From positions 4,741,621 through 4,805,620 of the forward strand of contig NZ_LFZW01000001.1 of NCBI RefSeq assembly GCF_001183985.1: 64,000 nt of DNA. Direction: 5' to 3'. Below the pieces are notes generated by a model. It was not told where the DNA came from, did no database searches, and was given only the letters and a program-made list of their open reading frames with translations. Source of the DNA: Peribacillus loiseleuriae. GTDB lineage: Bacteria; Bacillota; Bacilli; Bacillales; DSM-1321. The translations under genes were made by a program, and so were the position numbers. Below, piece after piece: positions 13,022 to 55,800 of the stretch. Numbering within the stretch: the stretch's first letter is position 1; each line of letters opens with the position of its first letter.

Positions 13022-13669
13022 CTATCGACCAAACAACTTTCTGCAGATATTACTTGTAAGATTCATTTTTAATAGGGGAACCTTCGCGGGGAATTGAGCG
13101 TTATACTCATCAGGGGCCCATTTAGCCTCTAACAACCTTCTTACGTTTTCGTCATCTTGCATAATCTTCTCTACATCGAAAACAACTGGAATAAGAGCCG
13201 TACTAGATCCGATGAGTGCTTCGCCTTTTTGCTCCACACCTAAACCAAAGGAAATTCGTAACATCCTGAAAAATCGCTTTTCTATTAATGCGATATAATA
13301 TTTAGGACTATGCCTTTTAGCATGGTCATAGAATACATGCATAAAGTTCTCGAAATACCCTTGGCGATGATAGTCTTTATGAAGGCATAGTTTATCAATT
13401 TCCCAAATTCGATTTTGGTTTACCGCTATCTCTTCGTCGAATGAAAAAGGAAAACGGCCTTCTACGGTACTGTCTGGATTTGTTGGGTCATATGGGATGA
13501 ATTCGATTGTTCCAATCACCTTTTTTTGCTTATTAGGCAATAATAAATTGTATCGGATACCACTTTTCGCATACGGGTCATTGTACCACCCATACATGTC
13601 ACAAAAATATTCCCAAGTATCTTCAAATTCTTTTTGTTGACGAGATGACTTTACTATTTTAAACATCAT
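13022..13669 (-). CDS. GNAT-type N-acyltransferase at the end of lasso locus 1
   Basis: 215 residues. The core WEIDKLCLHKDYHRQGYFEN carries the acyl-CoA binding signature of GNAT enzymes (LCLHKDYHRQG). The preceding strands (RYNLLLPNKQKKVIGTIEFI) and the long C-terminal part resemble the FeeM/LuxI-like N-acyl amino acid synthase branch more than a simple acetyltransferase. It lies 100 bp downstream of precursor A1 on the same strand and is the last gene of the locus. Acetylation of lasso peptides by a clustered GNAT is known elsewhere (albusnodin), so tailoring of the Lys-rich A1 core or self-resistance is possible. An unrelated role cannot be excluded. Confidence 0.7.
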   Translation of the reverse strand: MMFKIVKSSRQQKEFEDTWEYFCDMYGWYNDPYAKSGIRYNLLLPNKQKKVIGTIEFIPYDPTNPDSTVEGRFPFSFDEEIAVNQNRIWEIDKLCLHKDYHRQGYFENFMHVFYDHAKRHSPKYYIALIEKRFFRMLRISFGLGVEQKGEALIGSSTALIPVVFDVEKIMQDDENVRRLLEAKWAPDEYNAQFPAKVPLLKMNLTSNICRKLFGR

Positions 13670-13770
13670 TTCAGACCACCCTATACTGCCATGTGTTTGC
13701 TAATTTTCACGAAATTATTAGAAAACCCCTATACTATATTTCTCGCATAAGGGCCATTTATTTATCTTCA

Positions 13771-13902
13771 TTAGCTCCCCAAATCTGAACCCAGACCTGA
13801 ATCTCCCTGACCTGGTTTTTCTTGTTCAGGTGGCTTCCACCCCTTCATCGTCATACTGATAGTAAGTACTTCTAATTCAGGCTTTTTCCATTCTTTTTTC
13901 AT
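13771..13902 (-). CDS. Lasso peptide precursor A1 (paeninodin-like leader)
   Basis: 43 codons, preceded by GAGGAG nine bases before ATG. The protein begins MKKEWKKPELEVLTISMTM. The leader has the RRE-binding signature of this family (aromatic-x-x-Pro-x-Leu: W5, P8, L10) and the conserved Thr at -2 (T18) before the cut. The predicted core begins KGWKPPEQE, giving E7 or E9 as ring acceptor, and ends DLGS. Lys at core position 1 is unusual (Gly, Ala, Ser or Cys is the norm); cleavage after Lys would instead give a Gly1-Glu8 ring but move Thr to -3. The C-terminal Ser fits modification by the HPr-kinase-like enzyme of the locus. Rich in Gly, Pro and acidic residues. Confidence 0.85.
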   Translation of the reverse strand: MKKEWKKPELEVLTISMTMKGWKPPEQEKPGQGDSGLGSDLGS

Positions 13903-14055
13903 AGTCTCTTTATCTCCTCTTATAGATTTTTAGTTTTACTGACTTTGATTTGTTTTAGGAACACATTGACTACACGTAGATCAATATCCCCTTTTCAAAT
14001 TTAAATAGTAGCACCTCCCTCAGTTCATGAATGATATGAAAGAAACAGTACGGTT

Positions 14056-15852
14056 TCATCGAATAACCTCCATCTGCCTCCCTAAAAGCTTACTAAACAT
14101 CTTACTTTTTTCCTGTGAAAGCTGGTTGAATCCACCTTGTTGAATGATTTCACCTTGTTCTAGAACAATTACTTGGTCCGCATTCCGGATGGTCGATAAA
14201 CGGTGCGCAATGACAAGAATGGTCATCTTCCCTTTTAATCGATCTAATGCTTCTTGTATTTTGCCTTCACTTTCTGTATCAAGCGCACTAGTTGCTTCAT
14301 CCAGCACAAGGATAGACGGCTTTCTCAAGATAGCCCTTGCCAATACGAGCCGCTGTCTTTCTCCCCCAGAAAGCTTGATTCCACGATCACCTATAAGGGA
14401 ATCGAGACCATTAGGGAGCCTGCTTACAAATTCGGCAGCCGAGGCAAATTCTAATGCTTCCCATATCTTTTCTTCACTTGCATCCGGCATAACTAACAGC
14501 AAATTTTCACGTATACTGGCATTAAACAAAAAAGGATCTTGTGGAACATAGCTGATGGCCCGCCTTAATGATAGTAAATTATCTTTCGTTAGCGGGGTTT
14601 CATCGATGAAAACCTGACCTTCCTCCGGTTGGTTCAGACCCATAAGCAAATCAATTAAGGTACTTTTCCCTGCACCCGATCGCCCAACAAAGGCCGTCAT
14701 CTGATTCACAGGAATGCTCACATTGATATCTTTCAAAGCATATGTTGGGCCGTCTTTGTTATAGCGAAAAGAGACATTTCTACATTCAAGGCTTTTTACC
14801 ATCTCAATCGGTTTAATCATTTCATCCACTTGCTTTTCAAATTCTGTAGAATTTAAACATTTCGTTTGAAGGGACTTCACAGCTTTAAATGACGGCAGTG
14901 TTGTCGCAATTTGTTCCAAGGAAGCCTGAATACCGGCTACTCTCGGCCACAGTCGTGAGAATATTACAATAATTAGCATTAGTTGACCAGCTTGAGCATG
15001 GAACATCTTTACCGCGATTAGAATGAAAAGAGCCATTAATAGAGCAGATGCGATTTTATAATATAATTGCGAGGTTGTCTTCAATTTCGTATATTCTACT
15101 TGCTCTTGCTCCATTTTCTTCGTTATAGATTGGAACCATCCCACTCTTGACTCTTCTAGCGTATTGCTTTTAATATCTTTAATCCCGTTTATTTGATCCG
15201 TAATCCCAGCAAGATAGCTTCTACCTAATTCAAAGTTTCTGCTTCCAAGCGCTAGCGACTTCTTTAGAAAATTACGATTTAAAAAAACGATAAATACACC
15301 ACACAGTAAAACAAAGGCCGTGATACTAGATGATAACCAAAAAGCGAGACCTATCTGGATGAGAGTAAAAATGAGTGAAGACATAAATTGTAAAAAAGCA
15401 CTTGTCCCTCCACTCGTACGGGTTACTTCTGTTAATAATAGGTTAATAAGATCTGATTTTCTATTTTTAATGAAGAAATCCCAATTTGAATGAAGCACAG
15501 CCCCATACGTTTCTACACGAACATGCCTTAAAAAACCATTTTGAATTATCGCATTTCGAATCGTGATTTTCCTTTCCACAAGATTATGAGAAATGACGAT
15601 TAAGATATAAAATCCCAGAATAAGTGGTAAACCTACGGAAGCAGGGATATCTTGCAAGAAGCCAAACACATTTGCAATAGATGATCCCTCTAATCCCAAA
15701 TTTACAATGCCACTCATACTAATCATTGGGATTAATAATAAAATGCCGATACCATCCAATAATCCGACCACCGTCATCGCTACAAGGTTTATATAGAGAA
15801 CTTTCCCAGCGTATGAATGTATTTGTTTTAAAAAGTATAAAATATCTTTCAA
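14056..15852 (-). CDS. ABC exporter (lasso peptide transporter D)
   Basis: 598 residues from a TTG after GGGGGA. The fused membrane domain (about 1-320, six hydrophobic segments) and nucleotide-binding domain (about 350-598) show Walker A GRSGAGKST (~390), signature LSGGERQRL (~494), Walker B ILVLDEATSALD and the H-loop IAHRLST. This is the half-size, type I exporter that moves mature lasso peptides out and gives self-immunity. It has no N-terminal C39 peptidase, consistent with leader removal by B2. It is the only exporter in either lasso locus and would have to serve both products. Confidence 0.9.
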   Translation of the reverse strand: MKDILYFLKQIHSYAGKVLYINLVAMTVVGLLDGIGILLLIPMISMSGIVNLGLEGSSIANVFGFLQDIPASVGLPLILGFYILIVISHNLVERKITIRNAIIQNGFLRHVRVETYGAVLHSNWDFFIKNRKSDLINLLLTEVTRTSGGTSAFLQFMSSLIFTLIQIGLAFWLSSSITAFVLLCGVFIVFLNRNFLKKSLALGSRNFELGRSYLAGITDQINGIKDIKSNTLEESRVGWFQSITKKMEQEQVEYTKLKTTSQLYYKIASALLMALFILIAVKMFHAQAGQLMLIIVIFSRLWPRVAGIQASLEQIATTLPSFKAVKSLQTKCLNSTEFEKQVDEMIKPIEMVKSLECRNVSFRYNKDGPTYALKDINVSIPVNQMTAFVGRSGAGKSTLIDLLMGLNQPEEGQVFIDETPLTKDNLLSLRRAISYVPQDPFLFNASIRENLLLVMPDASEEKIWEALEFASAAEFVSRLPNGLDSLIGDRGIKLSGGERQRLVLARAILRKPSILVLDEATSALDTESEGKIQEALDRLKGKMTILVIAHRLSTIRNADQVIVLEQGEIIQQGGFNQLSQEKSKMFSKLLGRQMEVIR

Positions 15853-16345
15853 GATTGAATCCCCCTAAGGTAACGCTGGTTTTCCTTGTCTTTCGCTAAA
15901 TCCATCCATACAAGCCATAAAGAAAAATAAGGAAAGGGCTTTTGATAATGGTATTTCCTAGTTTCCTCAGTAAGGAATAAACATTTCACCCAGCTATTTT
16001 CTTTGTATGAAGGACATGGGGACAGGTCTACGTGACTTATTAATATAGCCAATCTACTTAGCGGGTATACTTATTTTATCGAGAAAGCATCCGAAATTCT
16101 GGCTCCGTACCGCCACCATTTTGATTAGGCGAGTGTAGTGTGATAAATGGTATTTCCTTCATAGTAACTGGTAGCGTTTTAACGCCATTTAGGTTTTGCA
16201 GGTAAATCCAAATAGACAAGATAATACATGGCAAACTTCATAAATAATTCCCAATCATCTTCCATATATTAAATACCTTGTTTTTTTTGGACACGATCGC
16301 CATTTTCTTCAAAGGAAATAGACTTCAACTGGAAATTTAATAGAT
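15853..16345 (-). pseudogene. Decayed gene between B2 and the exporter
   Basis: No full frame exists, but protein-like pieces follow one another with frameshifts and stops on the minus strand: LKSISFEENGDRVQKKQGI, then MEDDWELFMKFAMYYLVYLD, then VTMKEIPFITLHSPNQNGGG, then a 67-codon piece (15849-16052) with SHVDLSPCPSYKEN and PFPYFSLWLVWMDLAKDKEN. The pieces are not recognisably kinase, cyclase or nucleotidyltransferase. An accessory gene of the lasso operon has been inactivated here; its family was not recognised. Confidence 0.6.
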
Positions 16346-16351
16346 AGAAAG

Positions 16352-16831
16352 CTAGCCACCACTTTTTTCTTCCACCTTATTATCGTTCATTTCTTTGGCG
16401 AATTTAGCAACTACTGTAAACTTAGACATCCCTTCTGATCCAGATATGTAGAAAGTTCCGCTGCGAAGCCAGGCATGGGCAATTAACCCGGTTTCATCTT
16501 TGGAAGTACCTAGGTACAATGTACTCTCAATCTTCCTCTTCTCCAACATTTTCATTCCTGCGATTGCTTTCACAAAGCACTCACTCTCCCAAAAGGTATA
16601 GCGACTCATCATATGAATTGCATCAGACACGCTTTGTAAAATTTCCTTATTCAATTCATTCTTTATAAAGGGTGTTTCAACCATCTGTTCACCTAATGAT
16701 GGCGCTACCTTTGAAAACGCTAAACGTTTAAGATACCGAGCCCAAGCTAAATACAGATAAGCTTCGATCAACATCCATTTTGTTTGACCATTGACATGGT
16801 AGAACGAGAGAACTTTCCTCAACATCTTCAT
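16352..16831 (-). CDS. Lasso peptide leader protease B2 (transglutaminase-like)
   Basis: About 159 residues from ATG 16831, which follows AGGTGG; an in-frame GTG at 16840 is less likely. It has the B2 core: ESECFVKAIAGMKMLEKRKI with the catalytic Cys (about 85), TLYLGTSKDE, and AHAWLRSG with the catalytic His (about 120). The family removes the leader two residues after the conserved Thr, using a transglutaminase-type cysteine protease fold, in concert with B1. It is the only B2 in the window, so processing of precursor A2 (37 kb away) would depend on it. Confidence 0.92.
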   Translation of the reverse strand: MKMLRKVLSFYHVNGQTKWMLIEAYLYLAWARYLKRLAFSKVAPSLGEQMVETPFIKNELNKEILQSVSDAIHMMSRYTFWESECFVKAIAGMKMLEKRKIESTLYLGTSKDETGLIAHAWLRSGTFYISGSEGMSKFTVVAKFAKEMNDNKVEEKSGG

Positions 16832-16853
16832 TTTTACCACCTAGATTGAAAAA

Positions 16854-17159
16854 TCATGAACGGTCCATATCTTCCATTTGAATTAAATCTTCATCTTGCA
16901 ACTTAGCAATAAACGCAATAACTTGTTCTTCACACACCGTTTGGTCTACATCGTAAATAGAGCAAAGGGTTGATACCAAACTTTGAATCGAAATAGGCTC
17001 CTTCATTAACTCCCAAATTTCTCCTCCCATTTCACCCAGATTATAGTACTTCCCATTTTGTATACTTAGCATTACTTTTTCCCCGTCCATATCACTTACA
17101 ATATTCCCTTGCCCTTGGCTCACCATTTGATTTATTGAGATTATTTCAATTTGATTCAT
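16854..17159 (-). CDS. Lasso peptide RRE protein B1 (PqqD-like)
   Basis: 101 residues. PqqD-like RiPP recognition element: winged-helix features DMDGEKVMLSIQNGKYYNLG and GGEIWELMKEPISIQSLV, ending in an acidic helix (VIAFIAKLQDEDLIQMEDMD). B1 binds the leader (aromatic-x-x-Pro-x-Leu) and presents it to B2. The gene overlaps the kinase gene by 14 bp, with AGGAGG inside the kinase 3' end, and is followed after 22 bp by B2, so K-B1-B2 is translationally coupled. Only copy in the window. Confidence 0.93.
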   Translation of the reverse strand: MNQIEIISINQMVSQGQGNIVSDMDGEKVMLSIQNGKYYNLGEMGGEIWELMKEPISIQSLVSTLCSIYDVDQTVCEEQVIAFIAKLQDEDLIQMEDMDRS

Positions 17160-18090
17160 AGAGTATATCCTCCTTCTTAATAGTCATTAACATTAACTCT
17201 GCTAATTCATGAGCGGTAAAACGGGAAATTGGTCGTCTTAATTGATAAAGGTTCATTTTATTCACTATTTTGGCTGAAGTGTTAAAGTGCCAATCCATCA
17301 ATCCTGAATCCCCAATAAAAAAATTGCGATAAGTATGGCGGTACAAGGTCAAGAATCGTTCCATTTTTTTTATCGGATGAAGTGTGACTTTCTGGTCTTC
17401 TACTTTAACGATTTCAAAAATACCTGCAAGTGGCATAGGCTCACTTGCAAATTGGGCAGCGACAGGAATCGCAAACTTGTTTTCCCTTTTAATAATTGGC
17501 TGATAATTTCTGGAGTCCATTCCAAACTGATCTAAACTTTCCATCCACAGTTTTTGTTGCGGATAAGCTGGCGTTACAATTGGGATACAATCTGATGAAA
17601 GGGTTACTGGAATAACATCATCACTAAGAAGTTGATACCCTCTGTTTAAAAAGGCGGAAGCTAAAGTAGATTTACCAGCACCAGAGTCTCCTACGATGGC
17701 ATATGCCTTTCCATCTATGGCAATCGCACTACCGTGTAATGGTAGGATTTTTCTTTGCATTAATGCAGCTCCCATGCATGTACCGAGGAGGTAAAGACGG
17801 ATTTGATCTTCTTGGGCATTCACCATAGGCGAAACGATAATCCGATTGCCATCTTGAATTAAATAAATAGCTACCCCCTGAACCATGAACATACAAACGT
17901 TTTCTTTTATTAGAAAATATCTATTGGATTCAGCCTCTACTTCCCATCTTTTTGTCAGGTCAGCGATTTCAACTACGATATCAATGTCTTTATTTTCTAG
18001 CTTTATTTTCTGTGTTTCTGGTAGGTCTATTTCACTAGAAATATGTAGCCCAAAAGCTTTGTATACGACTTTTTTCATCGTTGCAGTCAT
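17146..18090 (-). CDS. HPr kinase-like lasso peptide kinase K
   Basis: 314 residues; GGAGAGG precedes ATG. HprK-C-type fold with Walker A AIVGDSGAGKST (about 135-145), LSDDVIPVTL and PAYPQQKLWM. In paeninodin-type pathways (PadeK, ThcoK) this enzyme phosphorylates the side chain of the C-terminal Ser of the precursor; both precursors in this window end in Ser. First gene of locus 1; an operator-like palindrome overlaps its promoter region. A decayed second copy lies in locus 2. Confidence 0.92.
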   Translation of the reverse strand: MTATMKKVVYKAFGLHISSEIDLPETQKIKLENKDIDIVVEIADLTKRWEVEAESNRYFLIKENVCMFMVQGVAIYLIQDGNRIIVSPMVNAQEDQIRLYLLGTCMGAALMQRKILPLHGSAIAIDGKAYAIVGDSGAGKSTLASAFLNRGYQLLSDDVIPVTLSSDCIPIVTPAYPQQKLWMESLDQFGMDSRNYQPIIKRENKFAIPVAAQFASEPMPLAGIFEIVKVEDQKVTLHPIKKMERFLTLYRHTYRNFFIGDSGLMDWHFNTSAKIVNKMNLYQLRRPISRFTAHELAELMLMTIKKEDILYESN

Positions 18091-18163
18091 CTAGCACCTC
18101 TCCATGATATGTTGTATTCATTTCATTATCGCATCTATTAAATTGTAAGCAGAGCAGCTTTTC

Positions 18164-18179
18164 GTTCGTTATAAAGAAT
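18164..18179. promoter_or_regulatory. SinR-type operator candidate, lasso locus 1 promoter
   Basis: GTTCGTTATAAAGAAT, two mismatches from the EPS promoter operator GTTCATTATAAAGAAC. On the minus strand it directly follows and overlaps a TATAAT box (18178-18183), about 75 bp before the kinase ATG, a position suited to repression. Confidence 0.6.
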
Positions 18180-18250
18180 TATAAGTGTAAAAAAATAGAA
18201 TTTACACAAAGGTTAAACAGCCAATAATCCTGCGATTAAACTTTAATTAA

Positions 18251-18266
18251 ATTCTTTATATAGAAC
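18251..18266. promoter_or_regulatory. SinR-type operator candidate, upstream site of locus 1
   Basis: ATTCTTTATATAGAAC, one base from a perfect GTTC-N8-GAAC palindrome and identical at 15 of 16 bases to the reverse complement of the site in front of the locus 2 cyclase gene (55952-55967). It lies in the 500-bp gap between the kinase gene and the divergent beta-helix gene and could act on either. Confidence 0.6.
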
Positions 18267-18269
18267 TAT

Positions 18270-18602
18270 ATGACTAAAAATTATCATTTTAAGGATGTCT
18301 TGTCAATGCCTTTTTTATTAATATAGTTCTTTAATCTTCTTGACAGAGTTCTATGATACGAGTCCCCAAGTATCACAACAAGATTTAGTTAGTTTATCCT
18401 TAATTTCACCTTCCGCCAAAGTCTTTTTCGCTAAAGCAATTCCACACCCGCCAATCTGCAATAAAATGTGCTAATTGCAATTTAACAAATTGATGAAAAT
18501 GAACATATACTAGCTTATAAATTTAATAATTACTTTGAAAAAAGGATGAGATATTTGATATTCGAAACTCTTTAATCGTAAAAAAGAAGGGGATGCAAAT
18601 TG
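18270..18602. other. Upstream region of the beta-helix gene
   Basis: Non-coding. It contains a further isolated GTTCTTT heptamer (18326-18332) and a TTGACA (18340-18345) without a -10 box at normal distance. AGAAGGGG precedes the plus-strand start. No gene seen. Confidence 0.4.
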
Positions 18603-21600
18603 ATGTTAGTCATTAAGGATTATTTTGAGGGAAGTTCAAATGTTATAAAGTCCTATCAAGAGGACATGATTGGATTTAAAATTGCAAATGATCATGATAC
18701 AACGAAACTAACCTTTACGATAAATGGCATAACCATTTTGGTCAAGGCTTTGGAGACCTTTAGTGGTAGGTTTGCGCCTTTCAAGTCTATTACCATTAAC
18801 ACGACTGTTCCATATCGCGCTACCGTTTTAGCCCCTTTTGATGGGACGATAACACCTCCCCCACCAAATGAAGTAACAAATTTATCCGCAAGCAATGTGA
18901 AAGCCACCACTTTAACTTTATCTTGGACAGCCTCCCATTCAAATGACGTGGTAGCATATGATATATATATGAATGGGACATTCCTAACATCTGTTGCGAA
19001 TACAAGTTATGAAGTTACCGGATTAACTCCATTAACAGCGTATACATTTAGTGTTTATGCGAAAGATGGCGCCAATCATATATCAAGTGGAACAGATCTC
19101 ACAATTACTACCCTTGAAACAGTGATTAAAGATACAACACCACCTGTATTAACGATTACTCCAGGCGGAACTTTTACCGATACTCAAACAGTCACCATGA
19201 CGACAAATGAAACAGCTACCATCTACTATACGTTAGATGGCACTAATCCAACTTCTTCAAGCCCTATTTACTCAGCGCCGCTAACGTTAACGGATACAGC
19301 AACCATAAAAGCTTTTGCGAAAGATCTAGCTGGTAATGAATGCGTCATTCAAACAGTAAGTTATACAAAAAAAATCATAAAGCCTACAGCAGGAATCATT
19401 ACGGATGGACTTATTTTACATTATGACTTTACCAATAGAGCTAAAACGACCTCTAATACCATTGTCGATAAAGTAAACAATGTTGTAGCTACTTTAGTCG
19501 GTGTTGCCCATAATGGCACTACTGATGGATATGTAGATAATAAAGGACTATTATTACAAAAACAAGGTTATGTACAGATTCCAACGAACACAAGTCCTTT
19601 AAATCAACTAATTGACTTAAATGGTGGTTTAACGATTCAAATGATTAGTTATGATACGAATGGTGTGCATTGGAAGACAGAGGATGGTAAATTTACTGCT
19701 GCTAAGTCCGATACATTTATTCGTTATAAAAGAAGTGATGAAAGTGAAGGTACTAAAGGATTTAATTCATATTGGTTTATTGATGCTACAGGGTACAAAC
19801 AAAGCTATGCTGATTTTGTAAATCCGATTGGCTCTAATGCCATTAACATATTTACACTAAGAGTCAATTCTGAAAATACGGTAAATCTATTCATTAATGA
19901 TGCTATAAATGAAAATGGTCGCATACCTGTTCCAAATGATTTTGCATCGTTTAATAATACCATGGCAAAGTCCCCTCTTCAGTTAAGACGCGATTACACT
20001 GTACTCAACTCCTCTCCCGAAACATTGGTTGCTTTTATCATCTACAATCGAACACTTACAGACGATGAAGTAAGAAGCAATTATCATTATTATAGAAATG
20101 AAGAGTCACTAGTGGGTATATCAACCAATCCTTCTGTTGTAAAATTGAATGCTGGAGAAAGCCAATTTCTTTCCGTACAAGCTTTACCAAATAGATATAC
20201 GGATTTATTAAACATCACCTTCCAAAGTGGAAATGAAGGCTATGTGACTGTAGATGAAAATGGAGTGTTATCAGGGGTTGCGGATGGAGAAACAAATATT
20301 TCTATAACAGCTACTTTCCAAAATCAAACTTTTACAGAATACGTGAATGTAAAAGTTGGAGGACAAGTCGCAACTCCACCTACTTCTACTAGGGTCATTG
20401 ACGGTATGTCGATTAATCGAAAAACAGATTCGATTAAAGTAGGGGAAAATTTTGTTGTGATGGCTACAGCTTTATCGAGCTCCCTTCCCTATGATATCTT
20501 CAATGATAATATTGTCCTTTGGGAAAGTTCTAACCCTAGTATAGCCAAAGTACAATATGGAGTTGTCGAAGGGGTAGCGGAAGGGCATGCTACCCTTACT
20601 GCGTTTGATGCAACAAGAACATACTCTAAAAGTTTCGATCTTACGGTTGTAAAACCACCGGAAGATGCGATAACGCCTGGGGAGACATACTATGTCCCCT
20701 TAAATGGGTATTCCATTAAATCCAATAATGCAGATTCGCAAAACACGACAAATGGAATCCAAAGAGCTTTAGATTATGCTTCAGCTAATAGATATAAGAA
20801 AATTATCTTTCCATATGGCACGTATTTAATTAGTCCAGCCGTTAGAACCATCTACCCTCCAACCGAAATGACGATAGATTTTAGCGACTCTATTCTTAAT
20901 ATTGAGCCTAGTAAATTGACAACCACAGGTTATAAGATGTTCTATTTTAATAATGTAACCCATACTAAATTGGTGAGGGCCCATGTATACGGTGAAAGGG
21001 ATTCAACAACTGTTCAAGCCTCCGTTGAAGGCTGTATAACTGTTCTCATGGAGGATTGTCTTCATACAGGCGTTGAATCCTGTACGTTTAGTAAATCACC
21101 CGGGTTTAATTTCATCACTGGCACCAGAAGAAATATGAATATGGGTACTCCGACTAAAAGTATTTCGATCAGTAAATTTAATTTTGAACTAGGAAATATC
21201 GATAAAAACGGAAATATTGACAATAGTGTTACCGCCAATTATTACAGATATAATCAATATATGGACATCTCAGGATTAGGTGAATATTACCTAGTTGGTT
21301 ATACACAGGGATACCACGGTTATCCGTATTTAAGATCTAGATTATACTCCATGTACTTTTATGATGAAAACTATCACTTCATAGAAGCACAAATGTTTAA
21401 TTTACAGTTTTATAATTATGACAAACCTGCTAATGCCAAATATGCAAAAATGGTTATCTACCAAGAAGCACCACCAACATCAGGAGATACAGATTTTGGC
21501 GGTGCAGTTGCTTTTATGAGAACATTCGGTATGCCTAGAAATGGATTTATTAAAAACTGTACGTTTGAAGATAACTTTAGTACAGGTCTTGCGATGTGCG

Positions 21601-22013
21601 GTGGTCAGGGTTGGTTTATAGAAAATAATACATTTTCAAATAACAGAGGAAGAATGCCTGGGTGCGACATCGACTGGGAAGATGGATGGGAGCACATGGT
21701 TGGCGATGTATTAAAACATAACACATTTAATTCTCCAATTGGCGTGATCTTTAGTGCAGGTGGTAGTTTAGCTGCATGTAATAACACGTTTAACAGGTCT
21801 GCTTTAACGGTATGGGGCAGGACACAAAACTGGAGGGTCTTTAATAATATGTTTAACCAAAAAGCAGGAGCAACAAGCCCAAGCTTATCTACACAAGGTG
21901 ACTCTGTCTTTGCGAGGAACATACTAAAAGGGCTACCTCCGTTTACCCCAGGAATACAGCATCCAGACGCAAAATATAAAGTTCATACTATTGATAATAC
22001 ATTTATCAATTAA
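18603..22013 (+). CDS. Multidomain beta-helix protein (FnIII, chitobiase-like, LamG-like, Big2, right-handed beta-helix)
   Basis: 1136 residues from ATG 18603 (a TTG lies one codon earlier). Order: a short alpha/beta N-terminal piece (1-80), Pro stretch, FnIII (~85-170, NLSASNVKATTLTLSWTA), chitobiase-like repeat (~180-255, IYYTLDGTNPTSSSPIY), LamG/concanavalin-like domain (~265-500, GLILHYDFTNRA, IYNRTLTDDEV), two Big2-like repeats (~505-690), and a right-handed beta-helix (~700-1136) starting NGIQRALDYASANRYKKIIF, with IKNCTFEDNF and IENNTFSNNRGRMPG repeats. The fold is that of polysaccharide lyases and phage depolymerases. No signal peptide is visible, which is odd for such a protein. It is divergent from the lasso locus and convergent with sinR. 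EPS binding or cleavage is inferred from fold and position only. Confidence 0.85.
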   Translation: MLVIKDYFEGSSNVIKSYQEDMIGFKIANDHDTTKLTFTINGITILVKALETFSGRFAPFKSITINTTVPYRATVLAPFDGTITPPPPNEVTNLSASNVKATTLTLSWTASHSNDVVAYDIYMNGTFLTSVANTSYEVTGLTPLTAYTFSVYAKDGANHISSGTDLTITTLETVIKDTTPPVLTITPGGTFTDTQTVTMTTNETATIYYTLDGTNPTSSSPIYSAPLTLTDTATIKAFAKDLAGNECVIQTVSYTKKIIKPTAGIITDGLILHYDFTNRAKTTSNTIVDKVNNVVATLVGVAHNGTTDGYVDNKGLLLQKQGYVQIPTNTSPLNQLIDLNGGLTIQMISYDTNGVHWKTEDGKFTAAKSDTFIRYKRSDESEGTKGFNSYWFIDATGYKQSYADFVNPIGSNAINIFTLRVNSENTVNLFINDAINENGRIPVPNDFASFNNTMAKSPLQLRRDYTVLNSSPETLVAFIIYNRTLTDDEVRSNYHYYRNEESLVGISTNPSVVKLNAGESQFLSVQALPNRYTDLLNITFQSGNEGYVTVDENGVLSGVADGETNISITATFQNQTFTEYVNVKVGGQVATPPTSTRVIDGMSINRKTDSIKVGENFVVMATALSSSLPYDIFNDNIVLWESSNPSIAKVQYGVVEGVAEGHATLTAFDATRTYSKSFDLTVVKPPEDAITPGETYYVPLNGYSIKSNNADSQNTTNGIQRALDYASANRYKKIIFPYGTYLISPAVRTIYPPTEMTIDFSDSILNIEPSKLTTTGYKMFYFNNVTHTKLVRAHVYGERDSTTVQASVEGCITVLMEDCLHTGVESCTFSKSPGFNFITGTRRNMNMGTPTKSISISKFNFELGNIDKNGNIDNSVTANYYRYNQYMDISGLGEYYLVGYTQGYHGYPYLRSRLYSMYFYDENYHFIEAQMFNLQFYNYDKPANAKYAKMVIYQEAPPTSGDTDFGGAVAFMRTFGMPRNGFIKNCTFEDNFSTGLAMCGGQGWFIENNTFSNNRGRMPGCDIDWEDGWEHMVGDVLKHNTFNSPIGVIFSAGGSLAACNNTFNRSALTVWGRTQNWRVFNNMFNQKAGATSPSLSTQGDSVFARNILKGLPPFTPGIQHPDAKYKVHTIDNTFIN

Positions 22014-22250: not shown

Positions 22251-22311
22251 ACGTATCTATCATCCACTTGCCCAAAGTACTTCTAAATATTTTTACATTT
22301 CTCTAATCATT

Positions 22312-22653
22312 TCATGTATTCTCCTGTTGCCATTTAATAAATTCAACAAGGATTTTATAATCTTGTACATTCCTTTTATCAATTCCCGCATCTTTTAAAT
22401 CATGGATAAAATCAAGCCATTCTTTTTCTACAGCAGATGCTGTTTCATTAAGATCTTCCTCCCGATTAAGCAATTGTTGGAGACTAACCTGCAAAACACC
22501 TGCAACTTTTTCCAATACTTGAATAGATGGATTTTTATTTAGGCTTCTCTCAATATTACTTAAATACGATTTGGAAATAAAGGCCTTCTCTGCCAGCTCA
22601 GATAATGTAAGACCTCTTTGTTTTCGAATTCTTAGAATGTTGTCACCAATCAT
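22312..22653 (-). CDS. sinR: SinR-like transcriptional repressor
   Basis: 113 residues. An XRE helix-turn-helix (1-62) closely matches B. subtilis SinR: both start MIG and share LSELAEKA, KSYLS-IER and NPSIQ-LEKV. The C-terminal segment (75-113, EKEWLDFIHDLKDAGIDKRN, VEFIKWQQ) matches the SinR helical hairpin used for tetramerisation and SinI binding. SinR represses matrix genes by binding GTTCTYT elements. Here the gene sits 122 bp after the last EPS gene on the same strand, possibly co-transcribed (autoregulation), and matching palindromes precede the EPS operon and both lasso loci. No sinI was found next to it. At 113 residues it fits SinR rather than the longer SlrR. Confidence 0.88.
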   Translation of the reverse strand: MIGDNILRIRKQRGLTLSELAEKAFISKSYLSNIERSLNKNPSIQVLEKVAGVLQVSLQQLLNREEDLNETASAVEKEWLDFIHDLKDAGIDKRNVQDYKILVEFIKWQQENT

Positions 22654-48327: not shown

Positions 48328-48391
48328 CCTTTCAACATTGATAATTATAGTAAGATGTTTTCTTTAAAATTGTCATGCCTCTTTTAATGGC

Positions 48392-48890: not shown

Positions 48891-48916
48891 TTTTTGTTCT
48901 TAAAAGAGAACAAAAA
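48891..48916 (-). terminator. Hairpin after the EpsB-like gene, also a GTTC-N8-GAAC palindrome
   Basis: Perfect 10-bp stem TTTTTGTTCT / AGAACAAAAA with a 6-nt loop, 18 bp after the stop. On the minus strand a T-rich tail follows, so it can terminate transcription. The centre GTTCTTAAAAGAGAAC (48896-48911) also has the spacing of the operator palindromes, so a SinR site is an alternative reading. Confidence 0.65.
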
Positions 48917-48934
48917 GATTAAAATTTTTTTCAT

Positions 48935-49573: not shown

Positions 49574-49591
49574 TTGATCCACCTCATCGTT

Positions 49592-50278
49592 TTAGCCAGT
49601 TCGTTTTCTATTTTTGCTTTTCATATTTTTTCTGTTCATTTTCACAATCGATCCGATTGTCGGTAGGTCTACTAGTTGCTCAATTTCACGTTCCGAATGA
49701 ACGGTTTCGTCTAAACTATCTAGAAACAGCACGATTCCGACACTGAGTACGAGCCCGATACCAAATCCAATGACTAAATACTTTAATGTCGATGTTGACT
49801 CTGACTCAACTAAAATAGGGGCTTTATTAATCTGTGCCTCTGATATCATTCTCGTTTCGTATATGCCTAGTATGCTGCCAACTTGTTTGGTAAAGATGCC
49901 CGCTGTTGAATTCGCTATGTTCGCTGCTAATTCTGGATTCGTATCTGAGACTGTAATTTTGACAATTTTCGAGCCACCCTCATTTACAAATGTAATTTGT
50001 TTATCCAGATTATCTAATGACGTATTTAGACCCAACTCTTCAATAACCTTACTTAACACAGTAGGATCTCTAAGAATGACTTCTAACGTATTGGAGGCGT
50101 TATTCTCTTCCATATTGAGAAAAACGCTTGCAGTAGATTGATAGACGGGCGGAGGTGCCTCTAATGTCATGCTATAGTACCCACTTGCTGCTGTAGTAAT
50201 GGCTGTAATAATGAATAATAGCAAAAACCGTTTTTTTATGACACCAAACAACACTTTAAGGTTTATTTCTTTTTGCAT
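49592..50278 (-). CDS. Wzz/CapA-type chain-length and kinase activator protein (EpsA-like)
   Basis: 228 residues from ATG 50278, five bases after GGAGG; the longer frame is unsupported. MQKEINLKVLFGVIKKRFLL leads into TM1, followed by an extracellular domain (about 45-170, PPPVYQSTASVFLNM, IANSTAGIFTKQV), TM2 (YLVIGFGIGLVLSVGIVLF) and a basic cytoplasmic tail that activates the BY-kinase. First gene of the EPS operon. Confidence 0.93.
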   Translation of the reverse strand: MQKEINLKVLFGVIKKRFLLLFIITAITTAASGYYSMTLEAPPPVYQSTASVFLNMEENNASNTLEVILRDPTVLSKVIEELGLNTSLDNLDKQITFVNEGGSKIVKITVSDTNPELAANIANSTAGIFTKQVGSILGIYETRMISEAQINKAPILVESESTSTLKYLVIGFGIGLVLSVGIVLFLDSLDETVHSEREIEQLVDLPTIGSIVKMNRKNMKSKNRKRTG

Positions 50279-50365
50279 GACAACCTCCAATACCATTTCA
50301 TACCATTCGTGGTGCATAAACACCATTTTTAACATGAAGCTTACAGACACGGCCTTCACTTTGTT

Positions 50366-50381
50366 GTTCTTTACAAAGAAC
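50366..50381. promoter_or_regulatory. Perfect SinR-type operator in the EPS leader
   Basis: GTTCTTTACAAAGAAC: both arms are the exact GTTCTTT heptamer of the known SinR consensus GTTCTYT, in inverted orientation 2 bp apart. It lies about 90 bp before the EpsA-like ATG, downstream of the promoter. Confidence 0.8.
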
Positions 50382-50475
50382 TAAATACCCAAATTTTTTT
50401 TCCTATTAATCTGAAATCGAACTTAAATCCACATATCCACTTAAATTTTAGGCCTAATGTAGCATTTATATATTC

Positions 50476-50504
50476 ATATTAGTTCATTATAAAGAACGAG
50501 TCAA
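50476..50504 (-). promoter_or_regulatory. EPS operon promoter with overlapping operator
   Basis: On the minus strand -35 TTGACT (50499-50504), a 17-bp spacer, and -10 TAATAT (50476-50481). The spacer contains GTTCTTTATAATGAAC (50482-50497), a GTTC-N8-GAAC palindrome with one exact GTTCTTT arm, so a bound SinR-type repressor would block RNA polymerase. The leader to the first ATG is about 190 nt. Confidence 0.8.
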
Positions 50505-50704
50505 GCCTATTTTCTTTAATTATTATATTGTTTGACTGAGCATTTCTAGCATAAATTTAATAACTATAAAGGATTATATTTGTATCACTATTTTAAAAGA
50601 ATACTATTTACACCTTTTATCCAAAAAAGCTATTAGAAAGGGATGTTTAAATTTCCCTATGTCCTCTTGATTAATCAGATATCTTTCTATCAATGAAGTG
50701 AGAA

Positions 50705-51295
50705 TCATTGAACAAATACCTTCTTAGCATCGTTCCCATGAAATCCAAAGAAATTACCCGTGAGTTTAGCATACTCCATATAAGTTGTTTGTCGACCTTC
50801 CTTTGTTTTCCACCATCTACTCGAGTCATATCCATTATCAGGAACCGAAGAATATAGGAGCTTAATTCTGCTTTTTGAAATGGCCTTTGTAAAATTGCTT
50901 TTCACCCTTCTCATATGATAGTTGGAGGAAACGACTATAGCCGAATGAAATTGATGCTCAACCATTAGTTTTTTCGTAAATAACGCATTTTCCGTCGTAC
51001 TGCTTGCATGGTTTTCTAGGATAATGGAATCAATAGGTACCCCCATTTTTAGCGCAGCCTCGTATAAACCGTCCTCTTGGCCGTTTGAAATCATAATATA
51101 AGATGCAAATCCTTGGTTATATAGCCCAACACCTTGTTCCAAACGCTCAATTCCCCCACCACTTAAAACAATGATTACGTCAGATTTCACTGGCTTTTCA
51201 TTAATGACAAGAAAATCCCCCGCCTCTTTCATCAAAGTCATAACCGTAAGGACGATTCCAATCATCGTCAAGATTACCCATTTACGTTTAACCAT
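50705..51295 (-). CDS. YdcF/ElyC (DUF218) family membrane protein
   Basis: 196 residues. One N-terminal transmembrane segment (VILTMIGIVLTVMTLM), then the DUF218 domain: SDVIIVLSGGGIERLEQGV, ENHASSTTENALFTKKLM and VVSSNYHMRRVKSNF. Related proteins (ElyC, SanA) are linked to envelope and lipid-carrier homeostasis; their activity is not established. It lies between the lasso nucleotidyltransferase gene and the EPS promoter. Confidence 0.88.
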   Translation of the reverse strand: MVKRKWVILTMIGIVLTVMTLMKEAGDFLVINEKPVKSDVIIVLSGGGIERLEQGVGLYNQGFASYIMISNGQEDGLYEAALKMGVPIDSIILENHASSTTENALFTKKLMVEHQFHSAIVVSSNYHMRRVKSNFTKAISKSRIKLLYSSVPDNGYDSSRWWKTKEGRQTTYMEYAKLTGNFFGFHGNDAKKVFVQ

Positions 51296-51453
51296 TACAC
51301 TTTCCTCTCATTACTCTCTAATGGAGACTTTCTATTGCTTCTTAAAGACTCTAACTTAAACCTTTTAAGTTTCCCCTTGTTCCAAACCATTCACTTGATA
51401 AGCAGCGACTGATTAATCAACGATGGGCCATCACTATAATTGTCATTTCCCTC

Positions 51454-52638
51454 CTAGGAAAAGGCCTGTTTCCTCATTTTTCTCCACATACATAAGATGG
51501 GGCGCAAGGGAAAATATAAGAAGTGAATTTTTTTAGGTAACGGTAAGGTTTCGACATCTGTAGGATATGGATACATCCAACTTAAGATATATAAGAACTT
51601 CTGCTGTGTAGACATAAGAGAATATAAATAGCGTTGATGAAATTTTGATATATCTTCAGGAACTGGTTCCGTATGTAAGTTCACCATTCTTTCTAGATAG
51701 AAGATGGTCTTTTGGGCTAATTGTTTTGAGTGGCTTCCTTGAATCAAGGGTTTCATTCCTTTTGAAATAGTTGTTCCTAGAAGTTCTGAACTTAACAGCA
51801 TGGCTTGGCCACCTAATTGTTGGTAATGGTACTTTCTTAACGTTTTGTTAAGCGCGACCCAATCTTGTTCTTTCTTTACGATTTGATGAATATCGATTAA
51901 CCATCGAAGCCGTGACCAGCCATGACGTGCCCCATGCGTAACAAGAAAGAAAAATAAATCCTCATTCCCTAATATATATGTCGGATAACTAGTAATTTCA
52001 CTGATTCTCTTTCTTTCCCACAATTCATTAAAACATGGTTCCATACTAGGTCCAGGGTTTAATCTCCAATGAACTTCAAGTTTAATGTTTGTTTTCGGAT
52101 GGAAAAAAGTTATATGATGATGTCTCCATTTCCAATCACTCAATACGGTTTGAAAATAGTCATTTTTCTCATATCCATTTTGAATTAATATATCTTCCAC
52201 CTTAGAAAGTTTCTCTAAGGGTACAAGTACATCTAAATCGCCAGATGTACGAAGGGAAATATCTCCGTAGAGCTCAGAGCCAAGCATGGGACCTTTTAGA
52301 AACAAGATCTGAATATGATGGTCTGTCAACAGTTCACTTACTTTTTCCATTTCTGCAGTAAGATGTAGCATTTGAAAAGTGTTTCTTTTATACTCGTGCT
52401 GTAAGGTTTGAAGAACATTTAGAGGTACAAGGTTTTCGTGCTTTTTCAACTTGGAAAATAACAATGGATAAACTCGATGGTGCATGGCTTGCTTAAAAAA
52501 CAAATGCCAATCGATTTCTTTCAGCCAAACTTCACTTTTTTGTAGGAGCAGATCATCACTTTTTTCATTTAGGATTTCAAGTATGAATGTTAACTCTTTA
52601 GGGATAAGTGCTAAATTAAGATTGTTATTATTATTCAT
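51454..52638 (-). CDS. Lasso-cluster nucleotidyltransferase family protein N
   Basis: 394 residues; GGAG precedes ATG. Nucleotidyltransferase (NTP_transf_5 type) with LFLKGPMLGSELYGDISLRT followed by GDLDVLVPLEK (metal-binding Asp pair, about 133-137), LEVHWRLNPGPS and THGARHGWSRLRWLIDIHQI. Such genes are standard in phosphorylated lasso peptide clusters; in the pseudomycoidin system, as I recall it, the homologue attaches hexose to the phosphorylated C-terminal Ser. Only copy in the window, so it could act on both peptides. Confidence 0.85.
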   Translation of the reverse strand: MNNNNNLNLALIPKELTFILEILNEKSDDLLLQKSEVWLKEIDWHLFFKQAMHHRVYPLLFSKLKKHENLVPLNVLQTLQHEYKRNTFQMLHLTAEMEKVSELLTDHHIQILFLKGPMLGSELYGDISLRTSGDLDVLVPLEKLSKVEDILIQNGYEKNDYFQTVLSDWKWRHHHITFFHPKTNIKLEVHWRLNPGPSMEPCFNELWERKRISEITSYPTYILGNEDLFFFLVTHGARHGWSRLRWLIDIHQIVKKEQDWVALNKTLRKYHYQQLGGQAMLLSSELLGTTISKGMKPLIQGSHSKQLAQKTIFYLERMVNLHTEPVPEDISKFHQRYLYSLMSTQQKFLYILSWMYPYPTDVETLPLPKKIHFLYFPLRPILCMWRKMRKQAFS

Positions 52639-52700
52639 TGTATTCTCCTTAATTGCGATTATTGCAGTTTTTCACCTTGTTACATATAACATCACCCAAA

Positions 52701-53636
52701 CTATGTAAAAAACGCGTATCCTAAAGTATTAATTCGACTCTTAATTATGAATGACTCCTTCACTTTTAATTGATAAGCTGTGAAGCCAGAAACCGGACGA
52801 CGTAATCGGTACATATCAATGTGGTTGATGATTCTTGCCGAAGTCTTAAAATGCCATTCCATTCCCCCTAATCGTGGGATAAGAAAATTACGATATGTAT
52901 GATGGTAAGAGAGTGTACGAATTCGCTCAAGTCCTTGGATTGAGTGAATTTCAACCTCTTCATTTTCTGTTTTGACTAATTCAACAATACCAGCAAGAGG
53001 TAAGGGCTCTGCAAAGTATTGTGTGTGAGCAGGGATACAATATTTCATTTCTCGCCCATATAAAGAATGATAATGATTTGATTCCATTTCAAACTCTGCT
53101 AGACTTTCCTATCATAACTTTTGCTGAGGATAGGCTGGGTAACAAAAGGAAGTTGATCTTCGGAAAGAGATATGGAGATAACGTCATCGCTTAGAAATTG
53201 AAACCCTTGATTAGGAATGCTGTTGCCAATGTCGATTTTCCAGAATCTGAATCACCGATAAATATATATGCCTTGCCATGAATCGCTACTGCACTACCGT
53301 GTGACGGGAGTATACTTCTTTGCATTAATAATCACTAATACATAACTCCTAATGATGTCTTCTTGGAAATCAAGTAATGGGGAAACGATGAATTTATCTC
53401 CATCTTGAATTGAAAATATAGCAATATCCTCAATCTGAAACACTACTAAATTCCCTTTAACGACAAATTGCCTTTTTGAAGGAGATAACTTCCTCTACAA
53501 CTAGCTTAAATCACCATTTCAATTCTAATATCTGCTATAGCTTACTTAATTAACTCCAACTGTTGATGCAATTCTGGTAGAAGAATATCACTATAAATAT
53601 TCACTCCAAATGATAAATAAAATTACCTCAAATAAT
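52701..53636 (-). pseudogene. Decayed lasso peptide kinase K'
   Basis: Homologous to kinase K of locus 1 along its length but broken. The N-terminal piece FYLSFGVNIYSDILLPE is followed by stops and frameshifts. A middle piece LMQRSILPSHGSAVAIHGKA continues into an intact Walker A GDSDSGKST; after a shift comes QFLSDDVISISLSEDQLPF. PAYPQQKL is followed by TGA TAG, then an open 128-codon 3' part (52701-53087) with EPLPLAGIVELV and HHTYRNF. At least two frameshifts and several stops exclude function; K of locus 1 would have to replace it. Confidence 0.9.
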
Positions 53637-53670
53637 GCCCTTATGCAGTATTTTCCTGGATAAGGGCATT
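53632..53670 (-). terminator. Hairpin after precursor A2
   Basis: Perfect 12-bp stem TAATGCCCTTAT / ATAAGGGCATTA with a 15-nt loop, 34 bp after the A2 stop and before the kinase remnant. The U-tract is weak. Such hairpins after RiPP precursor genes often keep precursor transcripts abundant. Confidence 0.6.
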
Positions 53671-53703
53671 AAATTAGGTTAAGTCTATTAAGTAAGTAAT
53701 AAA

Positions 53704-53847
53704 TTAAGAACCATGATGAATTCCTGTTTGTCCTTCTTCACCAAGGGCGGCATTATAGCCTTCATCATATTTACCCCAGTTTCTACTTGCCATTGTTTGA
53801 TCAATATGGAGCACTTCTAGCATCGGTTCTTTCCATTCCTTTTTCAT
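53704..53847 (-). CDS. Lasso peptide precursor A2 (paeninodin-like leader)
   Basis: 47 codons with an excellent ribosome site (GGAGGTGAGG) 15 bp after the cyclase stop. Leader MKKEWKEPMLEVLHIDQTM has W5, P8 and L10 for RRE binding and Thr at -2, and shares 12 of 19 leader residues with A1. The core begins ASRNWGKYD: Ala1 and Asp9 would close a standard nine-residue macrolactam ring. It continues EGYNAALGEEGQ and ends TGIHHGS, with the C-terminal Ser expected to be phosphorylated by kinase K. The 19-residue tail is long for a lasso. Confidence 0.92.
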   Translation of the reverse strand: MKKEWKEPMLEVLHIDQTMASRNWGKYDEGYNAALGEEGQTGIHHGS

Positions 53848-53862
53848 TGTCCTCACCTCCTC

Positions 53863-55800
53863 TCATGTGAATTGTTTGATGAATCTATAAATAATTAAGC
53901 TATACATTGAAATCTGATAGTCTAAATCAAATGAATTCTCTTGGCGTGGGCCTTGCTTCATTTTTTCAAATGCGTTATTTAGAACTTCAGTGTTCATTAG
54001 TTCTCCTATTTTTGAATCCTTACGCAAAACATCTAATTCATCTATAAAATCATCCCAATACGGCGTCATTCTATGAACACAATCTGCTCCTTGTACACCT
54101 CGAATTGTTTGATTCAATCGGACTTTATCAGGTAAATAAGTTTCCGTAGCTCTTCTAATTAATGATCGTCCTACTCCATTTTGAACGTATTGCTCTTCAG
54201 GTACAGTTAAACAGAAACGAATAACGTTTAGATCATTAGTTGGATCTCGTTTCCATAGCGAATAACGTAACGAAAGCTTGGCGCCTAAAGCACCGGTCGC
54301 ATTCCAAGAATACAGTTCTTCGAAGTGCTTTTTTCTTTCTTCATAAACATTATGTTCGTATGGAGATTGGATCTGTTTAATGCCATGTTCTTCAAGTTTT
54401 GCGAACACGTCCGTTTTACTGGCTAGTTCAGGATTAATGATTAAAGGATATTGATCTGTTTCGTCTGGAAAAAATTTATTCATACTAGGGAAGGCTATTC
54501 TACTAATATTTGGAACCCTTCTTAATCGATTTCCCCCAACCTTTTTACTATATTGATTTAATTCTTTATAAAGGCGAATCCATTTTAATCTTTTTAAAAG
54601 AATTGCGTAATAGTTATAAACAGGTCCCCAAGAAACACTTAAATTTCCCCTACCTCCATTTAATAAAACACCTATTCCTTGTTGTCGAGCTTCTCTAAAG
54701 ATGCCATCAATCCAATTAGAATTTGCAAAAAACTTATATGGCATTTCTAAATATTGAAGTAACTCATCAATTTCTAGTAACGGATTCGTTTCAGCAAAAT
54801 CGTAATAATGATCCCTTATATTCCCAACGAAGTCTACAGTTGAGGAAATAAATGGCCGTTCATCCGCTATTGTATTTTTCGGTGTCCAATCTATAAAATC
54901 TGTAGGTGGGATGGAACTAAATGTATGTAATATTTTATTGTCATTACGTAATGCTCTTGAAGCGAAGCTAACAACTGAACTTGAGTCTAATCCCCCACTT
55001 AAATGCGCTCCTACTCCATGATGTGTTCGTAATCGTGCAGTTACAGCATCTTGAAACACATGGCGAAATGCTTCTTCATATTCCTCATTATTTTTTAAGT
55101 TTAACCGTCCGATATTAGTAATTGTGCAGTATCTCGAAAATGTTATACGACCTTCTTTTAGCGAAAAACTGTGTGAGGGAGGTAATTGTTCAATGTTTTT
55201 AAAGGCAGTAATAGAAGTATCAACAGCATCATTCATACCTGGTATTGCCAAGAACTCTGCTAACCACTGTTCATTTAATTTCCTCTCAACATAAGGAAGT
55301 ACCAAAAGAGGTGCAATCGTTGTACAAAAAGCAAATTTGTTTTCACCTCTATAAAAATATAAAGTACGACTCCCCGAAAAATCCCTTGCCCCAAAAAGCT
55401 TTTGATTTTTCTGGTCCCAAATCATAAAGGCAAAGTCACCAACTAATAATTTAGGACATTCTTCGCCCCATTTTATGTAACTTAATAAGATTAATTTACT
55501 ATCAGGCATACCTTTTCTGTCCGCATAATCCACTTGTAATTTTTCAAATAATTCTTGACGATTATCAATAATAGCATCAGCTGTGATCGCTAATTGTGCT
55601 TCATAATCATAATAAGGCAATGGTTCTCCAATTGATTCAGGTGTAATCCACTGTGCATGACATCCAAGAAAGGTTCTCTCGTCGTTCCATGTTTGCACAT
55701 TATCGGCAGGATATTTCTGCAAAGCATTCATTAGTCCTCTACCGTTCTCAATCGATATAGGCTCGTCATTAAAATGAATAATTCCGGTTATTGCACTCAT
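53863..55800 (-). CDS. Lasso cyclase C (asparagine synthetase homologue)
   Basis: 645 residues; AAGGAGG precedes ATG. The N-terminal glutaminase-like domain lacks the catalytic Cys (starts MSAITGIIHF), as is usual for lasso cyclases. The C-terminal synthetase domain has the ATP-pyrophosphatase loop HLSGGLDSSSVVSFASRAL (about 265-283). It adenylates the ring Asp/Glu side chain and joins it to the core N-terminus. It is the only cyclase in the window, so both A1 and A2 would need it. Followed after 15 bp by A2. Operator-like palindromes lie upstream. Confidence 0.93.
   Translation of the reverse strand: MSAITGIIHFNDEPISIENGRGLMNALQKYPADNVQTWNDERTFLGCHAQWITPESIGEPLPYYDYEAQLAITADAIIDNRQELFEKLQVDYADRKGMPDSKLILLSYIKWGEECPKLLVGDFAFMIWDQKNQKLFGARDFSGSRTLYFYRGENKFAFCTTIAPLLVLPYVERKLNEQWLAEFLAIPGMNDAVDTSITAFKNIEQLPPSHSFSLKEGRITFSRYCTITNIGRLNLKNNEEYEEAFRHVFQDAVTARLRTHHGVGAHLSGGLDSSSVVSFASRALRNDNKILHTFSSIPPTDFIDWTPKNTIADERPFISSTVDFVGNIRDHYYDFAETNPLLEIDELLQYLEMPYKFFANSNWIDGIFREARQQGIGVLLNGGRGNLSVSWGPVYNYYAILLKRLKWIRLYKELNQYSKKVGGNRLRRVPNISRIAFPSMNKFFPDETDQYPLIINPELASKTDVFAKLEEHGIKQIQSPYEHNVYEERKKHFEELYSWNATGALGAKLSLRYSLWKRDPTNDLNVIRFCLTVPEEQYVQNGVGRSLIRRATETYLPDKVRLNQTIRGVQGADCVHRMTPYWDDFIDELDVLRKDSKIGELMNTEVLNNAFEKMKQGPRQENSFDLDYQISMYSLIIYRFIKQFT

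Follow-up and report, generated by a model that had tools for sequence, protein, structure and literature searches.

The closest described relatives of the genes considered here are the paeninodin-type lasso peptide clusters of Paenibacillus dendritiformis and Neobacillus (PMC11705953) and the loci for linear polyphosphorylated peptides (LPPs; PMC13381572). LPP loci are described as being within or close to capsule loci, frequently in genomes that also carry paeninodin clusters, and Trp or Tyr at one leader site is given as the main determinant of the choice of recognition element for ribosomally synthesized and post-translationally modified peptides (RRE; PMC13381572). The same paper calls a part of paeninodins in biofilm formation a tempting speculation. 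Here we describe a 64,000-nucleotide stretch of Peribacillus loiseleuriae DNA (contig NZ_LFZW01000001.1, positions 4,741,621 to 4,805,620 of the forward strand; hereafter the window), in which paeninodin-type genes are found on both sides of an exopolysaccharide (EPS) operon. The reading we favour, with reasonable though far from complete confidence, is that two peptide modules flank the EPS operon, share one set of maturation genes and obey a common SinR-type switch.

The first locus (13.8-18.1 kb) consists of K, B1, B2, D and A1. K encodes an HprK-like kinase (17146..18090; PF07475 31.3 bits, under the cut-off of 33.3), B1 a PqqD-type leader-binding protein (16854..17159; NF033536 138.9 bits, cut-off 80), B2 a leader peptidase (16352..16840; NF033537 94.1 bits, cut-off 33) and D an ABC exporter (14056..15852). 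The precursor gene A1 (13771..13902; NF033524 42.6 bits, cut-off 27) specifies a paeninodin-type leader and the core KGWKPPEQEKPGQGDSGLGSDLGS, which begins with Lys, and its partner at 13022..13669 encodes an N-acyltransferase of GNAT fold resembling FeeM and acyl-homoserine lactone (AHL) synthases. The second locus (51.5-55.8 kb) consists of C, A2 and N. C is an open reading frame of 645 codons for a lasso cyclase of the asparagine-synthetase type (53863..55800; PF00733, with NF033535 at 395.6 bits, under the cut-off of 525), A2 is an open lasso precursor gene (53704..53847), and N encodes an intact nucleotidyltransferase (51454..52638; PF14907 E 4.6e-62). Between A2 and N are the pieces of a second HprK-like kinase gene, K' (52701 to about 53622), which has decayed through stops and frame changes. 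A first-pass annotation made from the sequence had listed these genes apart from the GNAT gene, kinase pseudogene included, and had all genes facing the same way. The lasso-type genes do all occupy the minus strand, but a gene at 18600-22013 with fn3, Big_2 and weak beta-helix matches faces the other way.

The split of this lasso pathway is real. In the organism's own genome there is one lasso-type C among seven Asn_synthase matches, one B1, one B2, one intact K besides the pieces of K', and two PadeA-type precursors, A1 and A2, both members of NF033524. No second C, B1 or B2 was found elsewhere in that genome, and the two loci thus complement each other to make one full set, as the first-pass annotation had supposed. 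B2 is present in 30 of 101 sampled genomes, this one included. In all 29 others C is located 1.2-2.1 kb from B2, compared with 37 kb here (distances were compared by hand from search coordinates, and C is broken in genome G024). The common order in the loci fetched from relatives is C-A-K-B1-B2, followed by N and D, with N found elsewhere nearby in some genomes. Because the genome has only one C, one B1 and one B2, and these are far apart, it is close to forced that the maturation of A2, if the peptide is made at all, depends on B1 and B2 in trans.

A2 has the features expected of a paeninodin-type lasso precursor. Its PadeA-type leader scores over the curated cut-off (NF033524 39.5 bits vs 27), and its core, ASRNWGKYDEG..., has Asp at position 9 and a C-terminal Ser. 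An acidic residue at core positions 7-9, suitable for ring closure, is found in 40 of the 44 peptides of a lasso set that includes A2 and was assembled from peptides adjoining cyclases, leaving out near-duplicates and several NGPGNANADCF-type peptides. A2 also resembles the precursor adjoining C in genome G019 (locus L029), which has the cyclase closest to that of the window (71% identity). The P. loiseleuriae genome has C, B1 and B2, though spread over two loci. Thus, the C-A2-N operon would be a paeninodin-type lasso peptide locus whose own K is dead and which lacks B1 and B2, an assignment that we hold, as part of the whole two-module reading, to be fairly probable. A second type of precursor, whose core reads NGPGNANADCFD...NASC, occurs at six other loci (L137, L165, L176, L177, L185 and L190), where it mostly adjoins a tandem second cyclase.

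Part of the larger result concerns the first locus, which appears to be a separate kind of peptide module; the other part is the likely SinR switch described below. A scan of genome contigs yielded 37 named loci with a GNAT gene of the window type, in Bacillus, Cytobacillus, Metabacillus, Jeotgalibacillus, Cohnella, Halobacillus and others. In 35 of these 37 the gene adjoins a small peptide that has a leader of the paeninodin type, then a Lys after Thr-Met (or Thr-Leu, Thr-Phe), and the pair is often isolated. We collected 41 such peptides as an A1 set (the 35 named loci, the window, and L029, L093, L116, L120 and L122, with duplicates and the distant L124 left out); this set and the lasso set were hand-picked by neighbouring gene and leader, not by core. 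The first core residue is Lys in 41/41 members of the A1 set and in 0/44 of the lasso set, and the last residue is Ser in every member of both. Asp or Glu at core positions 7-9 is found in 10/41 members of the A1 set, at no fixed position. By inspection, all 41 A1 leaders have Trp at the WxxP/YxxP site and 35 have the full WxxP; the A1 family lacks the YxxP leader motif of the LPP family. No cyclase is located next to A1, where the GNAT gene is found instead, and in relatives A1 and GNAT often form a free-standing pair. Short leader-like peptides of a further kind, without Lys1, are also found near the GNAT genes of L122 and L159.

Since the A1 family has no fixed ring acid, A1 is probably not a lasso precursor. 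Both precursors belong to NF033524, while A1 itself would rather be assigned to the Lys1/GNAT family. The claim that neither half can work alone agrees with the second locus, which lacks B1 and B2, but the supposed need of the first locus for a cyclase is not supported. We tentatively suggest, as a proposal with somewhat less than an even chance of being right, that A1-GNAT represents a new Bacillales family of ribosomal peptides. Its products would be linear, freed by B1/B2 that are often encoded in another operon, acylated at Lys1 by the FeeM/AHL-synthase-like GNAT and phosphorylated at the C-terminal Ser, and they would be expressed with lasso and EPS genes in the SinR biofilm regulon.

The GNAT protein matched FeeM and GNAT families in a profile search, all below cut-off (PF21926 E 4.5e-4), and a profile search of PDB sequences gave no match; the gene was found in no plasmid record searched. 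A predicted model (predicted local distance difference test 87.1, predicted TM-score 0.81) was compared with known structures by Foldseek. The matches include the GNAT acetyltransferase 5jph (E 3.0e-7), FeeM (2g0b) and the AHL synthase TofI (3p2h), the latter two both at E 3.9e-7, with query TM-scores of 0.53-0.57 for these three and 0.59 for BjaI; MesI also matched. One possibility is that the enzyme has no part in maturation and protects the producer by acetylating a lysine of the product, as described for triculamin and lariocidin; PMC13352647 names Lys acetylation as a form of self-resistance for lasso peptides. The invariant Lys1 of the A1 set would agree with such a role. However, the GNAT gene travels with the A1 peptide and not with the cyclase, and the resemblance of the fold, about as near to FeeM and AHL synthases as to acetyltransferases (TM 0.53-0.59), is indecisive. 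We consider a protective role unlikely and prefer acyl transfer to Lys1 as a putative maturation step.

The sharing of B1 and B2 between operons looks common in genomes with A1-GNAT. Of the 37 GNAT genomes, 36 carry both B1 and B2 at scores over the curated cut-off, compared with B2 in 30/101 relatives. The B1/B2 genes of these 36 genomes are at most 6 kb from GNAT in 7 cases and 22-39 kb away on the same contig in 19; of the remaining ten genomes, one has them at a distance of 192 kb and nine have them on a different or unresolved contig. Because the pair is thus away from A1 in 29/36, B1 and B2 would serve A1 from another operon in those genomes. The window would be their mirror image, wherein B1 and B2 serve A2 from another operon. 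EPS-operon homologues are found between B1/B2 and GNAT in all six stretches that were fetched in full (G003, G080, G424, G429, G431 and G433).

Both peptide loci likely share a SinR switch with the EPS operon, to judge from predicted binding sites. The duplex best bound by Bacillus subtilis SinR has two GTTCTCT sites in inverted orientation with a 2-bp gap (PMC3163267), and the palindrome GTTCTTTATAAWGAAC, common to the upstream regions compared in the window, has this half-site geometry and 2-bp spacing. Matches to the motif are located upstream of C (55952..55967 and 56044..56059), upstream of K (18164..18179 and 18251..18266) and upstream of wzz in the EPS operon (50366..50381 and 50482..50497). 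The two before K lie within the upstream region that K shares with the divergent beta-helix gene, and the second before wzz occupies the 17-bp spacer of a TTGACT..TAATAT pair seen by reading. All are predicted sites with inverted half-sites of the GTTCTYT type, as in the SinR regulon. A seventh place is between tyrK and the next EPS gene. Allowing up to two mismatches, GTTCTTTNTAANGAAC gave 13 matches at these seven places compared with 1.09 expected, and 0/100 shuffles scored as high; all seven are intergenic, and intergenic sequence makes up 14.7% of the span. A genome-wide search at up to one mismatch gave 11 distinct places, of which 5 fall in the C, K and wzz promoters and six lie outside the window; there are 15 matches to the palindrome vs 11 to a backward control pattern. 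Surrounding reading frames were listed for four of the six outer places, two in L207 and one each in L208 and L210.

A candidate for the repressor is the SinR homologue encoded on the minus strand at the end of the EPS region (22312..22653; phmmer to B. subtilis SinR 1b0n, E 7.1e-23). The same genome has a second SinR-like gene (L208, 3697-4029) beside a SecA-like gene, both identified by reading, with a one-mismatch palindrome about 0.8 kb upstream, inside the SecA-like reading frame. The palindrome motif, which had been taken from the window, was searched for in the fetched loci, using unique upstream regions of 350 bases (750 for GNAT so as to take in A1); the rows are related, and the counts are descriptive. 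With up to two mismatches, it occurs upstream of C in 45/67 regions, of wzz in 22/23 and of free-standing A1-GNAT in 15/27, and also upstream of K in 16/64, of D in 8/62 and of A1-GNAT located behind D or N in 2/13. The comparison genes B2 (0/62), tyrK (0/28) and N (2/55) rarely or never have it. K promoters carry the palindrome more often in genomes with A1-GNAT (14/39 vs 2/24, Fisher 0.018 with kinship ignored), although this excess is suggestive only. The palindromes before C, K and wzz had been overlooked in the first-pass annotation, as had the GNAT partner of A1 and a possible remnant of N with a repeat, described below.

Taken together, the two modules may operate in the following manner. 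The product of the K-B1-B2-D-A1-GNAT operon would be another peptide, probably a linear one. Both precursors have the W-x-x-P-x-L leader, which the one B1/B2 pair is predicted to bind, with cleavage after Thr-Met. Acting in trans, the pair would free A2 for ring closure by C; acting in cis, it would release A1 so that Lys becomes the N-terminal residue, the proposed target of acylation by the GNAT enzyme. K is predicted to phosphorylate the C-terminal Ser of both A1 and A2, and D would be the exporter. Perhaps a SinR-type repressor switches both peptide operons along with the EPS genes.

Several observations weigh against this two-module reading. Unfortunately for the proposed partnership of A1 and GNAT, two of the 37 GNAT loci (L131 and L151) have no A1-type peptide nearby, and the Pro of WxxP is absent, by inspection, from 6 of the 41 A1 leaders. 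The A1 of the window itself has Glu7 and Glu9, so a ring is possible for this peptide. In Halalkalibacter nanhaiisediminis (L133), which has A1-GNAT, neither B1 nor B2 was detected. In addition, C is found near every B2 locus read, except for the divergent second B2 of G443 (L178), a reading that omits eight further B2 matches, mostly second copies. Because C accompanies nearly every B2, a dependence of A1 on B1/B2 is inseparable, by occurrence, from a dependence on C. With respect to the switch, a looser symmetrical form of the palindrome is not significant in the window (12 vs 7.5 expected, reached in 8/100 shuffles), single GTTCTYT half-sites are not enriched there (28 vs 22.4), and all counts of occurrence ignore kinship. 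Finally, the possible N remnant has a borderline profile score of 3.9 bits.

The ancestry of the two loci can be approached through their kinases. The intact kinase (K1) and K' share 69/142 residues, whereas K' shares 78/137 with the kinase of Jeotgalibacillus soli (L040), with the caveat that decay lowers all identities of K'. In the tree, the partner of K1 is an orphan kinase of G029 (99/89), and that of K' is the K of G040 (95/90), where K' and this K are both on long branches. A recent duplication of K was rejected, as K1 and K' are not paired and K' is closer to an outside K. A better fit than one cut cluster therefore appears to be two modules with separate ancestries, followed by complementary loss. 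Next after the orphan kinase of G029 (L049, 9323-10600) comes a paeninodin-type leader whose core is rich in Gly and Asn; a palindrome lies upstream of the kinase, and no C or B2 was found in that 20-kb stretch.

Other genes were placed with FastTree. The window D falls in a 7-row clade of D genes that adjoin A1-GNAT (support 1.0), C is sister to the C of G019 (1.0) and N to the N of G040 (0.93), and there is less support for the placement of B1 (0.89) and B2 (0.75). In Cytobacillus purgationiresistens, C. horneckiae and Bacillus sp. SD088, C-A-K-B1-B2-N is located before wzz, and the beta-helix gene, D, A1 and GNAT are found beyond the EPS genes. The window keeps this frame, but its K-B1-B2 genes are placed with D-A1-GNAT. 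Perhaps the EPS genes originally had a lasso operon at one side and D-A1-GNAT at the opposite side, and K-B1-B2, possibly with N, was then gained beside D-A1, with complementary loss afterwards. A gene similar to the beta-helix type also precedes D-A1-GNAT in some relatives.

The possible N remnant (15849..16351, minus strand) lies between B2 and D, which is the canonical slot of N in the B2-N-D order, and is interrupted by a dispersed repeat (16002-16198). Its best tblastn match to N proteins has E 9.6e-5 (399 queries, composition correction off), and 10 of the N queries match it at E below 0.01, as do 3 matches of the control. A higher profile score is reached by one row of the 200 shuffles and, apart from the tile that covers the real N, by two tiles of the window. 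We do not accept the remnant as proof because of its borderline profile score, the control matches, and the fact that part of the stretch is a dispersed repeat. This repeat, of about 197 bases, has at least 44 further genome matches at 76-88% identity, and a second copy was not found within the window. It is a possible seat of rearrangement.

The first-pass annotation had offered a different origin, wherein a single ancestral cluster contained two lasso precursors as well as a duplicated kinase and was divided by an insertion or rearrangement, and C cyclises both A1 and A2. The unsplit counterpart that it called for does exist, since G019 (L029) has exactly the run C-A2-K-B1-B2-N-D-A1-GNAT, complete with the sister C and a clade-mate D, and Glu7 and Glu9 of the window A1 would also suit this proposal. 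However, K' and K1 are unpaired, and their identity is lower than that of K' to an outside K (identities that the decay of K' lowers), which speaks against a kinase duplicated within one cluster. The A1 family, moreover, has no Asp or Glu at positions 7-9 in 31/41 members and has Lys1 in 41/41. Relatives also commonly have the lasso operon and A1-GNAT on opposite flanks of the EPS genes, so no insertion of EPS is needed to explain the arrangement. We therefore regard a single cut cluster as improbable.

It is also doubtful that the second locus is simply a dying lasso cluster in which C, A2 and N are functionless leftovers after the loss of K' and B1/B2. The K' pseudogene and the absence of B1, B2 and D in cis are what such a cluster should exhibit, but C (645 codons), A2 and N are all open, and both palindromes remain upstream of C. 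Where a column is conserved in 95% or more of relatives, the window proteins nearly always keep it, with 108/109 in C and 55/55 in N, as well as 24/24 in B1, 29/30 in B2, 57/58 in K and 132/132 in D. Intact conserved columns beside a decayed K' are counted here in favour of a working shared set, as the two-module reading would have it. It is very unlikely that the GNAT gene encodes an AHL- or FeeM-like synthase of a small signal and merely neighbours A1, given that a Lys1 peptide adjoins it in 35/37 named loci across genera, often as an isolated pair, despite the Foldseek matches to TofI, BjaI, MesI and FeeM.

These findings bear on how such loci are annotated and studied. To judge from the A1-GNAT pair, another class of peptides seems to be processed by lasso leader proteases as well. 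The presence of a lasso-type leader would then not prove that the product is a lasso peptide, and labelling every NF033524 match as one would mislabel precursors of the A1 type. With C and B1/B2 in different operons, P. loiseleuriae is a natural strain for telling two products apart by single deletions. The palindromes common to the lasso, A1-GNAT and EPS operons also offer a direct and cheap test of the idea that paeninodins function in biofilms.

A lasso pathway from a split operon has reportedly been described for the cebulassopins, to go by a title alone. Among the literature matches listed, none describes A1-GNAT or a link between SinR and lasso peptides in its title or abstract, and 'lasso peptide' and 'SinR' were found together in one paper only, a cancer study with no bearing on the subject. 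The window shares with paeninodin-type clusters (PMC11705953) the C, A, K, B1, B2, N and D set, the WxxP leader and the C-terminal Ser, and A2 has Asp9. Unlike in those clusters, B1, B2, K and D are 37 kb from C and A2, across the EPS genes, and there is a second precursor of another type that would share B1, B2, K and D. LPP loci (PMC13381572) resemble the A1 module in being cyclase-free and in having an RRE, an HprK-like kinase and an exporter. They differ in their YxxP leaders and SpI peptidase, where the A1 family has Trp at that site and a GNAT; 'GNAT', 'acetyltransferase', 'acyltransferase' and SinR are absent from the main text of that paper. As at the SinR-controlled eps and yqxM promoters of B. 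subtilis (PMC3163267), GTTCTYT half-sites are located upstream of the EPS operon, but here, unlike in that system as described, the peptide operons carry the palindrome too.

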